IMG/VR virus record: IMGVR_UViG_3300042465_003579 | Span: 1 to 30,394 of that record | Length of the DNA: 30,394 nt | Origin: a virus | Reading direction: 5' to 3' (one strand) | Part shown: positions 11,072-15,786 of the stretch, piece by piece | Numbering within the stretch: the stretch's first letter is position 1 | Layout: each line of letters begins with the position of its first letter | Position numbers and translations under genes: made by a program | The notes under the pieces: generated by a model | Database searches by the model: none | Seen by the model: the letters and a program-made list of their open reading frames with translations, nothing else | Told to the model about the DNA's origin: nothing

Positions 11072-11142
11072 GGGGTTAGTAGAAGACTACGATAGACATT
11101 TGCAATGTCCTGCTTAGGGAGCGTTACCCTATAGCTCCACCA
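11072..11142 (+). tRNA. tRNA-Ala(UGC) with non-canonical D-arm and T-loop
   Basis: The acceptor GGGGTTA (11072-11078) pairs fully with TAGCTCC (11132-11138). The third pair is G-U, the classic alanine identity element G3-U70. A73 and an encoded CCA follow. The anticodon loop TTTGCAA (11099-11105) gives UGC; four of five anticodon-stem pairs form. The T-stem TAGGG/CCCTA is perfect, but its loop is AGCGTTA instead of TTCRANY. The D-arm is reduced to GTAG-AAGA-CTAC (11079-11090), with no G18-G19 and no spacer bases 8-9. It may be functional but odd, or decayed. Confidence 0.72.
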
Positions 11143-11148
11143 GTTTAA

Positions 11149-11225
11149 GGCCGAGTAGTTCAATTGTCAGAACAGCGTGACTCCAAATCCGTGTGTTGTA
11201 GGTTAAAATCCTACCTTTGCCGCCA
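11149..11225 (+). tRNA. tRNA-Trp(CCA), aberrant
   Basis: The anticodon loop CTCCAAA (11181-11187) reads CCA, the D-arm GTTC-AATTGTCA-GAAC is good, and the T-stem GTAGG/CCTAC is perfect, with CCA encoded. Oddities: the acceptor has one C-U mismatch, the anticodon stem (GCGTGA) carries an extra T, and the conserved G19 and C56 are T and A, which could still pair. It may be a pseudo-tRNA or a deliberately divergent one. Confidence 0.75.
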
Positions 11226-11778: not shown

Positions 11779-11854
11779 GGCACGTTAGCATAACGGTTAA
11801 TGCTCTAGATTGTCTATCTAAAAGATGTGGATTCGATTTCCATGCGTGTCGCCA
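11779..11854 (+). tRNA. tRNA-Asp(GUC)
   Basis: The acceptor GGCACGT pairs with GCGTGTC (two G-U pairs). The D-arm is GCAT-AACGGTTA-ATGC, the anticodon loop is TTGTCTA, and the T-arm GTGGA-TTCGATT-TCCAT is canonical. The CCA is encoded. The outermost anticodon-stem pair is mismatched (C-A). Confidence 0.88.
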
Positions 11855-11879
11855 AAAACAACATCGATATAGTTTATAA

Positions 11880-11965
11880 GGAAAGTAGTGCGTTGGACGC
11901 AAGAGAATTTGCTAAATTCTTCGGGTTGGAAACAGCCTCTAGTTCGATTCTAGTTCTTTCCTCCA
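11880..11965 (+). tRNA. tRNA-Ser(GCU)
   Basis: This is a class II tRNA with acceptor GGAAAG/CTTTCC, a short D-arm TGCG-TTGGA-CGCA, anticodon arm AGAAT-TTGCTAA-ATTCT, a long variable arm hairpin (GGTT/AGCC), a canonical TTCGATT T-loop, discriminator T and encoded CCA. Confidence 0.88.
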
Positions 11966-11990
11966 AAGATTTTATGTTAGAATACTTCAG

Positions 11991-12066
11991 GGTGAGTTTA
12001 GTTTAGCGGCAAAACCTCAGAATGTGACTCTGAGTGTCATCGGTTCGAATCCGATAGTTCACCCCA
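11991..12066 (+). tRNA. tRNA-His(GUG)
   Basis: The acceptor GTGAGTT pairs with AGTTCAC. An extra 5' G and discriminator C give the histidine-specific G-1/C73 pair. The D-arm is GTTT/AAAC, the anticodon arm TCAGA-ATGTGAC-TCTGA, and the T-arm ATCGG-TTCGAAT-CCGAT. The CCA is encoded. Confidence 0.92.
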
Positions 12067-12087
12067 AAGTATTTTAGTTGTCATCGT

Positions 12088-12160
12088 TGGTGTATAGCTC
12101 AGTTGGTAGAGCGAAACGCTGTTAACGTTTAGGTCATTGGTTCGAAGCCAGTTACACCAG
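12088..12160 (+). tRNA. tRNA-Asn(GUU)
   Basis: There is a perfect TGGTGTA/TACACCA acceptor, D-arm GCTC-AGTTGGTA-GAGC, anticodon arm AAACG-CTGTTAA-CGTTT and T-arm ATTGG-TTCGAAG-CCAGT. The discriminator is G and the next bases are CAA, so CCA is not encoded and must be added. Confidence 0.92.
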
Positions 12161-12173
12161 CAATGATAACTAT

Positions 12174-12257
12174 GGATGTTTGTCCGAGTGGCCGAAGGAA
12201 GGGAGCTGTAACCTCTCTAGTAAAATCACGGTGGTTCGAATCCATCAGCATCCACCA
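12174..12257 (+). tRNA. tRNA-Tyr(GUA)
   Basis: This is a class II tRNA: acceptor GGATGTT/AGCATCC, anticodon arm GGGAG-CTGTAAC-CTCTC, an extended variable region, T-arm GGTGG-TTCGAAT-CCATC, discriminator A and encoded CCA. Confidence 0.9.
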
Positions 12258-12467
12258 TAATATGAGAGGCTAAACTGACTCATAAACGTAGTATACTAGT
12301 AAAGACTACCAGAGAGTTTCAGGCTGTTAACAGTTTGTTGTAATAACCGGATGCATCTAGTTTTTACTTCACGGGTTCGATTCCTGTAGCATCTCCCAAT
12401 ATTCTCAGGGATGGGAACACGAATAACCGTGTAAAGTTATCCATCAGGTGTAAAGCCTGTCCAAATA
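12258..12467 (+). ncRNA. structured non-tRNA segment with orphan T-arm
   Basis: No normal tRNA can be built here. Visible hairpins are TATGAG/CTCATA (12261-12284), GTAGT/ACTAC (12288-12309) and GGCTGTTA/TAATAACC (12322-12348). A canonical T-arm ACGGG-TTCGATT-CCTGT (12371-12387) follows, ending AGCATCT-C-CCA at 12398. Next come ACACG/CGTGT with its loop able to pair downstream, and CAGG/CCTG. It may be tRNA remnants or a functional small RNA comparable to the non-tRNA stable RNAs in the T4 tRNA cluster. Confidence 0.5.
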
Positions 12468-12543
12468 CAGTGTGTGAGAAAGTTGGTAATCTACTTCCCT
12501 TGGACGGAAGAAATCGCTAGTTCGAGCCTAGCCGCACTGACCA
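12468..12543 (+). tRNA. tRNA-Pro(UGG)
   Basis: The acceptor CAGTGTG pairs with CGCACTG. The anticodon arm is CTTCC-CTTGGAC-GGAAG (perfect) and the T-arm is GCTAG-TTCGAGC-CTAGC (perfect). The discriminator is A and CCA is encoded. The D-stem is short (AGA/TCT). Confidence 0.92.
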
Positions 12544-12703
12544 GAGCATAAGCGGAAGCTCCGAGAATTAATCTATTTTCTCTGAGGTAAACACGACCAA
12601 GAAACAGAACGTGTTAAGAACAAGTATTTATTAAAGAAGGTATGTCGGCTGGCCCCACAAGAAACATTAAGTCGAAAGAGGCTGTTTAATAAATAGAATT
12701 TAA
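12544..12703 (+). ncRNA. structured non-tRNA segment
   Basis: Several hairpins lie in series: GAGC/GCTC (12544-12561), an imperfect CTC-GAGAA/TTCTC-GAG stem, AACACG/CGTGTT around 12589-12614, and a perfect 11-bp stem TATTTATTAAA/TTTAATAAATA (12625-12695) enclosing 49 bases with two GGCTG words. There is no anticodon arm or T-loop. It is a possible small RNA or processing element between tRNA-Pro and tRNA-Thr. Confidence 0.45.
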
Positions 12704-12778
12704 GCTATACTAGTTTATCTGGTAAAACACTTCTTTTGTACGGATGAGTGCAGGGTTCAAGTCCTTGGTGTAGCTCCA
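12704..12778 (+). tRNA. tRNA-Thr(UGU)
   Basis: The acceptor GCTATAC pairs with GTGTAGC. The D-arm is GTTT-ATCTGGTA-AAAC, the anticodon loop TTTGTAC, and the T-arm CAGGG-TTCAAGT-CCTTG. The discriminator is T and CCA is encoded. One T-T mismatch occurs in the anticodon stem. Confidence 0.88.
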
Positions 12779-12822: not shown

Positions 12823-12898
12823 GCAGGTAAGGTGTTTATGGATACACACTAGTCTTCCAAACTTGAGTACATCAGATCGTTACTGAGTACCTGCTCCA
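12823..12898 (+). tRNA. tRNA-Gly(UCC) with unusual T-loop
   Basis: There is a perfect GCAGGTA/TACCTGC acceptor, D-arm GTGT-TTATGGAT-ACAC with GG, anticodon arm CTAGT-CTTCCAA-ACTTG (one T-T mismatch), discriminator T and encoded CCA. The T-stem (ATCAG/CTGAG, four of five pairs) encloses ATCGTTA, where the conserved T54 and A58 are A and T, as in the tRNA-Ala of this cluster. Confidence 0.82.
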
Positions 12899-12993
12899 AG
12901 AATTCAATAGCTAGGTTGGCCGACCGAAAAGACGATTCATTACCGTCCTGCTTTTGTCTTACATTGTAATGTTATTTTAATGGAATAATAAAA

Positions 12994-14307: not shown

Positions 14308-15786
14308 ATGAACAACGTGATATTTTCCCCAGCAAGTAAAGCACAAGAACAATTCTTGAATAGTGATGCTGATATTACATTCTATGGAGGTGCTGCTGGA
14401 GCTGGAAAGTCACATTGTTTATTAGGTGCGTTCTTAAAGTTCTGCCATCACCCTAGAACAAGGGGTGTTATCTTCCGTAGAACAACAAAACAAATTTCTA
14501 ATCCCGGTGGTTTATTTGACTCAGCAATTAATCTGTTCAAGCAAGTTGACCCTAAATTAAGAATAAAAAACAGAGACTTAGAACTTATATTTAGTTCAGG
14601 AGCTACTCTAAAATTTGCTTATCTAGATAATCCATCAGATAAGTATAACTTTCAAGGTGCTGAACTTACGTTTATTGGATTCGATGAAATCCAACAACTA
14701 ACAGAAGACAACGTAATTTACTTACTATCTCGCTTACGTTCTACCACAGTAGATTATAAGAAACAAATCGTAGCTACAGGTAATCCTGACTATGATAGCT
14801 TCATTAGACACTGGGTTGAATTTGCTTTAGACGAACGTGGAATCCCTATTCGTAAAGAAAAATATCCTACTAGATATATGAAGCAGATTCCCGGTGGTAA
14901 AGTAGAATGGGCGAATACTAGGGAAGAACTTGAAGCAATTCACGGTAAAGGTGATGAATCAGGTATCCTATCTTTTGTGTTTATTCCCGGTACTATCTAC
15001 GATAATCCTCCTTTGATGAAGGCTGATCCTACTTACGTATCCAAATTAAAGTCCCTACCTCGCGTTGAAATGGAAAGACTACTCTTGGGTAGCTGGTACG
15101 CACGATCAGAGGCTTCAGGACTGTTTAAACGTGAATGGACACCTATTATTGAGGAACCTTTCGTTAAAGCTAAAAAGGTTCGTGCATGGGACTTAGCTTT
15201 CAGTAAACCATCGGAACAATATCCGAATCCTGACTGGACTAGAGGAACGTTGTTAGCCAAAGATAAAACTAACATGTATGCAATTGAACATTGTGTAGGT
15301 TTAAGGGATAGAGTACATGAAGTTGAAACTCTTATATTCAAGACAGCTATTGATGATGGTACAGATGTTGTAATTAGTATTCCACAAGACCCTAATGCTG
15401 CTGCTGGTGCTTACGCACGAGACTTACAGCGTAGATTAGGTGAGATGGGTTTTACTTGTAGGTTACAGAAACCTGTTAAATCTAAGATTACTAGGTTTGC
15501 TCCGTTCAGTTCAGTAGCCCAAGCAGGTTATGTGCGTGTAGTACGTGGTGCTTGGAACAAAGAGTTATTCGATGAACTTGAAGTCTTCGGAAATGAAACT
15601 CCACACAAGGATGATATCGCAGATACGATTAGTGATGCATTTACTTTACTAAACAAAGATGGGAGTCTACCGGACTTTTCACTCAACAATGTAGGTTCAG
15701 TTGCTTCTCCTATTTTCTCAGGATACAACTTAAATTCTATTATGCCTAATCAGACTTTCCAAAGTTTACCAAGTTTTTCTTTCTAG
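14308..15786 (+). CDS. terL: terminase large subunit (packaging ATPase and nuclease)
   Basis: The 492-residue protein has a Walker A-type FYGGAAGAGKSH near residues 25-36, a Walker B-like FIGFDEIQQL near 125-133, and a C-terminal RNase H-like nuclease with RAWDLAFSKP near 292-301 and HKDDIADTISDAF near 431-443. It drives DNA into the prohead by ATP hydrolysis and cuts concatemers. The length is normal for phage large terminases. It follows the small subunit by six bases. Confidence 0.95.
   Translation: MNNVIFSPASKAQEQFLNSDADITFYGGAAGAGKSHCLLGAFLKFCHHPRTRGVIFRRTTKQISNPGGLFDSAINLFKQVDPKLRIKNRDLELIFSSGATLKFAYLDNPSDKYNFQGAELTFIGFDEIQQLTEDNVIYLLSRLRSTTVDYKKQIVATGNPDYDSFIRHWVEFALDERGIPIRKEKYPTRYMKQIPGGKVEWANTREELEAIHGKGDESGILSFVFIPGTIYDNPPLMKADPTYVSKLKSLPRVEMERLLLGSWYARSEASGLFKREWTPIIEEPFVKAKKVRAWDLAFSKPSEQYPNPDWTRGTLLAKDKTNMYAIEHCVGLRDRVHEVETLIFKTAIDDGTDVVISIPQDPNAAAGAYARDLQRRLGEMGFTCRLQKPVKSKITRFAPFSSVAQAGYVRVVRGAWNKELFDELEVFGNETPHKDDIADTISDAFTLLNKDGSLPDFSLNNVGSVASPIFSGYNLNSIMPNQTFQSLPSFSF

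Follow-up and report, generated by a model that had tools for sequence, protein, structure and literature searches.

A phage alanine tRNA gene of an apparently undescribed class with a probably rewired elbow

Can a tRNA whose D-loop and T-loop both depart from the usual letters be a working tRNA, or is such a gene on its way to being lost? The TΨC loop and the G18-G19 motif are textbook near-universals, and the question is raised by a gene without either in its usual form, tRNA-Ala(UGC) at 11072-11142 of a 30,394-base virus fragment (IMGVR_UViG_3300042465_003579; "the window" is this whole stretch). From comparison of sequences we consider it, with a probability of about 85%, a functional phage tRNA-Ala(UGC) belonging to an apparently undescribed class with a rewired elbow; rather than a broken gene, this is very likely an alternative design that works. 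The gene was read directly as follows.

11072..11142, + strand: tRNA-Ala(UGC), phage, compact D-arm and putative rewired elbow (sequence, minimum free energy cloverleaf, 18 distinct homologues with compensatory changes)
11072..11078, + strand: acceptor stem 5' strand GGGGTTA, G3 at 11074; 7/7 pairs with 11132-11138
11079..11090, + strand: D-arm GTAG-AAGA-CTAC, stem of 4 base pairs (bp), AAGA tetraloop; stem kept in 18 distinct aligned homologues
Within the D-arm, + strand: proposed A18 at A11084 and proposed G19 at G11085
11094..11110, + strand: anticodon arm AGACA-TTTGCAA-TGTCC, anticodon TGC at 11101-11103 (sequence)
11115..11131, + strand: T-arm TAGGG-AGCGTTA-CCCTA, loop A54 G55 C56 G57 U58 U59 A60 (outer stem compensation, loop covariation)
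11132..11142, + strand: acceptor 3' strand TAGCTCC (U70 at 11136), A73 and encoded CCA (sequence)

The letters GAT join the D-arm to the anticodon arm and TGCT joins the latter to the T-arm. A 7-bp acceptor stem, a cloverleaf and a CCA end are found as in a canonical elongator tRNA, and G3-U70, A73 and an NGC anticodon in a loop of 7 nucleotides (nt) mark it as an alanine tRNA. Alanine identity, four-base AAGA D-loop and AGCGTTA T-loop had all been named in an earlier sequence-only reading and were confirmed. The T-loop AGCGUUA is not the canonical U54 U55 C56 R57 A58, and AAGA, with the proposed A18-G19, lacks the canonical G18-G19. The spacer 8-9 is absent, the D-stem abutting the acceptor stem, and the anticodon stem has 4/5 pairs with A27.C43 mismatched (C27.C43 in the closest aligned relatives L022, L061 and L116); U33 is present. 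The unconstrained minimum free energy fold of the RNA was the cloverleaf, at -19.3 kcal/mol, with the anticodon loop tightened by two extra pairs. Since this energy was by itself not significant (z = -1.05), the weight rests on the comparative evidence. The stop of an open reading frame (11070) directly precedes the gene, tRNA-Trp begins 6 nt after it, and the gene heads the tRNA cluster of a tailed phage, upstream of its terminase gene. Two candidates were rejected: tmRNA, given the anticodon arm and no tmRNA in the ARAGORN tRNA/tmRNA scan of the window, and pyrrolysine tRNA (tRNA-Pyl), given the anticodon TGC instead of CUA and an anticodon stem that is 4-bp and not elongated.

The suspicion that standard finders may miss the gene proved correct. 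ARAGORN did not report it by default, found nothing there at -ps80, gave wrong tRNAs at -ps60 and -ps40 and missed it in its mitochondrial modes; Rfam cmscan with the tRNA model RF00005 did not match it even at E<=10. We attribute this to the different, matched letters of the D- and T-loops.

Is the gene decaying? The unusual loops, the 4/5 pairs of the anticodon stem and the absence of the gene in the closest relative, L002, would all suit a decaying tRNA pseudogene whose elbow is gone. We searched for syntenic relatives with the terminase gene (14308..15786) and obtained 80 loci. Limnohabitans phage DC31 (filed under Pakpunavirus) and Pseudomonas phages are among the terminase relatives. Two relatives found in this way, L061 and L022, carried tRNA-Ala homologues, missed by ARAGORN, whose stems differ but whose D-loop (AAGA) and T-loop (AGCGTTA) are the same. 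An exact scan of viral contigs for a 19-mer of the window's acceptor and D-arm gave 0 matches; a pattern scan gave 41 stretches, mostly tRNA-like. The cloverleaf scanner required the T-loop family and pairing of the acceptor, anticodon and T-stems, and a D-arm filter required a 4-bp stem and a loop starting AAG or AAA; G3-U70 and A73 were not required. Both were present in every one of 19 aligned Ala rows, that is, the window and 18 distinct homologues, which carried an AAG/AAA-type D-tetraloop and the AGCGTTA T-loop. The 4-bp D-stem had 3-4 pair types at each position, the outer pairs of the T-arm stem varied with compensation, and 383/399 stem cells paired, a proportion inflated because scanner and filter demanded stems. 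As 18 homologues share loops and G3-U70 while their stems change in a compensatory way, the gene is not decayed, which is what the sequence-only reading had held; its proposed search of related phages for arms broken without compensation found compensatory changes instead, an outcome favoring function. With the empty loop control and the bacterial tRNA-Cys genes described below, a pseudogene is very improbable and already largely refuted.

Is the alternative T-loop confined to alanine? We defined the class by a T-loop A[GU]CGUUN on a 5-bp stem together with a D-loop carrying G18 if position 55 is U and A18 if it is G; in the window tRNA-Ala (A18/G55) and tRNA-Gly (G18/U55) both belong to it. 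A cloverleaf scan for A[GT]CGTTN gave 285 matches in the loci, 264 of them with CCA and spread over 18 isotypes, and 216 distinct class tRNAs at score >=40; the loci were partly selected by the motif, and these frequencies are not representative. Identity elements followed the isotype. G3-U70 was found in 39/39 class Ala members versus 3/177 non-Ala members, and the discriminators were A73 in Ala (39/39), U73 in Cys (24/24), G73 in Asp (12/12) and Trp (6/6) and C73 in His (9/10). The G3-U70 pair and the Ala, Cys, Asp and Trp discriminators were not imposed by the scanner. In 0.94 Mb of phage DNA selected by terminase, and as such unbiased for the T-loop, the A[GT]CGTTN cloverleaf with CCA occurred 28 times; some 60 permuted motifs gave 0 cloverleaves in the same DNA, except two whose patterns include the canonical TTCGATT or the class loop ATCGTTA. 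Within one locus an isoacceptor was nearly exclusively canonical or alternative (both kinds in 13 cases, one kind in 1422). ARAGORN recovered 118/271 class members, so tRNA counts of phages and of some bacteria are too low.

Among named phages, blastn with single members gave nothing useful for the Ala and Tyr types and no match for Cys. The Lys member led to two carriers, Pseudomonas phage ventosus (L123 2997-3070; unannotated, tRNA-Pro-like, with a weaker acceptor stem) and Synechococcus phage BUCT-ZZ01 (L124 2996-3069; tRNA-Lys, not annotated as a tRNA). The tRNA-Lys of SUSP2, reached by the same query, was canonical and was discarded. DC31, the closest named terminase relative, had no class member within the 21 kb searched. 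Two loci (L040, L041) showed a further elbow combination, G54-U58, in a tRNA-Tyr that has GGCGTTA as its T-loop and AAAG as its D-loop.

Does such a tRNA work without an elbow? The sequence-only reading had concluded from the missing G18-G19 and the swapped T-loop that the elbow contacts cannot form, and tRNAs working without D-loop/T-loop contacts are known, as in mitochondrial type II or compact-core tRNA-Pyl; the 4-nt D-loop and missing 8-9 spacer indeed resemble Methanomethylophilus alvus-type tRNA-Pyl, as described in a review (PMC7609411). The conclusion that the contacts cannot form was not supported by our data. ATCGTT-type T-loops had GG in the D-loop in 35/35 cases and AGCGTT-type loops had A-G (Fisher p = 7e-22), and the mutual information of positions 18 and 55, at a fixed D-loop offset, was 0.455 as compared with a within-isotype shuffle maximum of 0.05; shared ancestry makes both values overstate independence, and the 18/19 numbering is inferred, as D-loop length varies. 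Near-minimal D-loop pairs of the U55 and G55 types were found in six isotypes: Ile (AAAGGTA/AAAAGCA), Lys (TAAGGTG/TAAAGTG), Asp (TCATGGAC/TCATAGAC), Gly (TTATGGAT/TTACAGAT), Tyr (TTAAGGAG/TTAAAGAG) and His (TGATGGAT/TGATAGAT). A census of loop letters in 1473 tRNAs with any T-loop extended this to several backgrounds at 54-58, which alternates among U-A, A-U and G-G. With U54-A58, U55 went with GG (897/902) and G55 with AG (128) or GG (18); with A54-U58, U55 went with GG (40/40); with G54-G58, G55 went with AG (54) or GG (7) and U55 with GG (10) or AG (1). Position 56 switches with 19, A56 often accompanying D-loop GT and U56 GA. An absent contact would not produce covariation of 18-55, in at least six isotypes, and of 19-56, so a contact-free tRNA is quite unlikely. 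Because the loop letters covary across hundreds of tRNAs, we propose an interacting elbow with a different set of pairs: it is rewired and not lost, U55 going with G18-G19 and G55 with A18-G19, the base contacts themselves being deduced from the letters. The class probably keeps the L fold with other letters.

Besides the inflated stem pairing, the motif-selected loci, the shared ancestry and the inferred numbering mentioned above, some observations weigh against a functional, rewired tRNA-Ala. About 165 tRNAs combine A54-U58 with G55, and 23 of them have GG in the D-loop; many of these read AAGG, which also contains AG, but genuine exceptions may be among them. That the gene is dispensable follows from L002, a near relative with 95% terminase identity in the best segment, in which the Ala-Trp pair is absent. 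At L002 2380-2545, where the pair is missing, the junction GGGGTTA/CTGCCACTATAAT resembles a deletion footprint.

Is the rewired design used in translation? A conserved tRNA-like RNA could serve a non-ribosomal purpose, for example as bait for defences that cut tRNAs, as a regulator or as a donor of an amino acid. Staphylococcal tRNA-Gly species with a non-standard elbow serve peptidoglycan synthesis, and the partners of standard tRNAs could be hindered by a divergent elbow. Moreover, C33 replaces U33 in some class Ala tRNAs of Verrucomicrobia. A scan of bacterial genomes gave 72 stretches, chiefly tRNA-Cys of Saccharibacteria and tRNA-Ala/Lys of Verrucomicrobia. From two near-complete Saccharibacteria genomes we recovered 40 and 41 tRNAs covering every amino acid, with exactly one tRNA-Cys found in each, of the AGCGTTA type. 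The Saccharibacteria class tRNA-Cys genes have ordinary chromosomal neighbors (LemA, M48 peptidase, DNA ligase). When six such genomes were searched for a canonical tRNA-Cys, the only matches had, judged by reading, no tRNA layout. An exact-pattern scan matched 25/195 Saccharimonadia genomes, only about 11 with a tRNA layout by reading, a lower bound as other stems are missed. Since two genomes each yielded a class member as their sole tRNA-Cys, the rewired design very probably supports translation. In 42 related phages with one tRNA-Tyr each, the elbow types were interleaved on the terminase tree with at least 16 changes, canonical and rewired tRNA-Tyr replacing each other as expected of interchangeable parts. 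With 18 isotypes bearing correct discriminators, the near-exclusion with canonical isoacceptors and U33 in the window member, a non-ribosomal role is improbable.

The Verrucomicrobia class tRNAs mostly stood in tRNA arrays, some adjoining PriA or LeuRS genes. C33, in place of the near-universal U33, precedes the anticodon UGC of class tRNA-Ala in loci including L232, L233, L241, L246 and L285; our scanner required U33 and misplaced or missed their anticodon arm, which was read by eye instead. Inside such arrays we also noted tRNA genes with the anticodon TTA, resembling UAA suppressors (L253 458 and L254 7727), the one in L254 being tRNA-Gln-like with T-loop TGCGAAC.

How might a functional tRNA-Ala with a rewired elbow act? 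C56 would still pair with the D-loop G19, while A54-U58 would substitute for U54-A58 and A18-G55 for G18-U55. This would preserve the L shape as well as the exposed face of G19-C56 that RNase P, the ribosome and further factors use, and the substrates of TrmA, TruB and the m1A58 enzymes (U54, U55, A58) would be gone. The tRNA would be cut out of the phage tRNA cluster, would receive alanine from the host alanyl-tRNA synthetase via G3-U70/A73 and would read GCN codons, replacing an ordinary tRNA-Ala. The least certain step is the benefit: the tRNA may need no host T-loop modification, or may go unseen by factors or nucleases recognizing the standard T-loop. Both possibilities, independence of modification and escape from factors that read the T-loop, are offered as hypotheses for the selective reason. 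An adaptive meaning may also be missing altogether, by drift among equivalent elbow pairs under a relaxed constraint from host modification enzymes; this concerns only the cause, is compatible with a functional tRNA and has somewhat less than an even chance. It would account for the several combinations, including intermediates (AUCGUUA; UGCRANN), and for the free interchange of canonical and variant forms, whereas the strong preference for AGCGTTA (135/206 A54-U58 loops) over very divergent stems and isotypes is less expected, as drift might scatter more. Tentatively, and with the odds rather against it, one may think of a second natural "elbow code" in bacteria and phages, with 18-55, 19-56 and 54-58 as interchangeable modules from which fully functional tRNAs of almost every amino acid are built; by swapping standard and rewired versions, phages would evade those host factors that recognize the near-universal TΨC elbow, be they modification enzymes or defence nucleases reading the T-loop.

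The neighboring features of the window were:

11149..11222, + strand: tRNA-Trp(CCA), T-loop TTAAAAT, D-loop AATTGTCA; Rfam 48 bits, missed by ARAGORN
11779..12778, + strand: remaining tRNA cluster, Asp, Ser, His, Asn, Tyr, Pro and Thr (ARAGORN)
12823..12898, + strand: tRNA-Gly(UCC), T-loop ATCGTTA, G18-G19 D-loop; U55 subtype of the class
14308..15786, + strand: terminase large subunit (PHROG 979, E 1.6e-155)

The window holds three elbow kinds: Ala (A18-G55, A54-U58), Gly (G18-U55, A54-U58) and Trp, whose G18-U19 D-loop suggests U19-A56 in place of G19-C56, a compensated third variant. The sequence-only reading had overlooked the Gly member and the Trp variant. The tRNA-Gly is identical in L002 and was missed by ARAGORN by default and detected at -ps80. 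A 49-nt tRNA remnant (12351-12399) has an intact T-arm (ACGGG-TTCGATT-CCTGT) and ends resembling those of an acceptor stem, with D and anticodon arms absent, and an Rfam int-alpA RNA match (12904-12971; 41 bits, above gathering) lies immediately past the cluster.

That D- and T-loop change in step across many isotypes of a natural class shows that the letters of the elbow can be exchanged as one unit, and this in bacterial tRNAs that very probably work. For tRNA engineering such tRNAs could provide compact scaffolds that may be independent of modification, and the role of T-loop modifications and elbow-reading defences in shaping phage tRNAs becomes directly testable.

How does the class compare with known systems? 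We found no description of it in the searchable literature, whose coverage is thin for subscription papers, so that this is not proof of novelty. The passages searched in reviews on non-canonical tRNAs (PMC7609411), the elbow (PMC4810234) and the T-loop (PMC7912444) mention no such class; they name only exceptions such as mitochondrial tRNAs, tRNA-Pyl and eukaryotic initiators, whose A54-A58 is given as a special case at position 54 (PMC7912444). A paper on phage tRNA evasion deals with the anticodon loop, and the words T-loop and D-loop do not occur in it (PMC10264068). With canonical bacterial tRNA-Ala(UGC) the window gene shares G3-U70, A73, CCA, UGC with U33, C56, a D-loop G and a 7-nt T-loop on a 5-bp stem; it differs by A54 G55 C56 G57 U58 instead of UUCRA, A18 instead of G18, the 4-nt D-loop, the missing 8-9 spacer and the 4-bp anticodon stem. 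Eukaryotic initiator tRNA keeps U55 and G18-G19. It has A54 in common with the window gene, but retains A58 (A54-A58; PMC7912444), and it represents one isotype only. M. alvus-type tRNA-Pyl has the 4-nt D-loop and no nucleotide between acceptor and D-stem, and tRNA-Pyl generally is described as lacking G18-G19 and TΨC (PMC7609411). It differs in anticodon and identity, T-loop and its long anticodon stem, whereas the rewired class spans 18 isotypes. Zagryadskaya and Steinberg (2003/2004) reportedly obtained suppressor tRNAs from randomized D/T-loop libraries; such tRNAs can work in E. coli with unusual combinations at 54-58 and in the elbow. Those were laboratory selections, whereas the members of the rewired class are natural genes.
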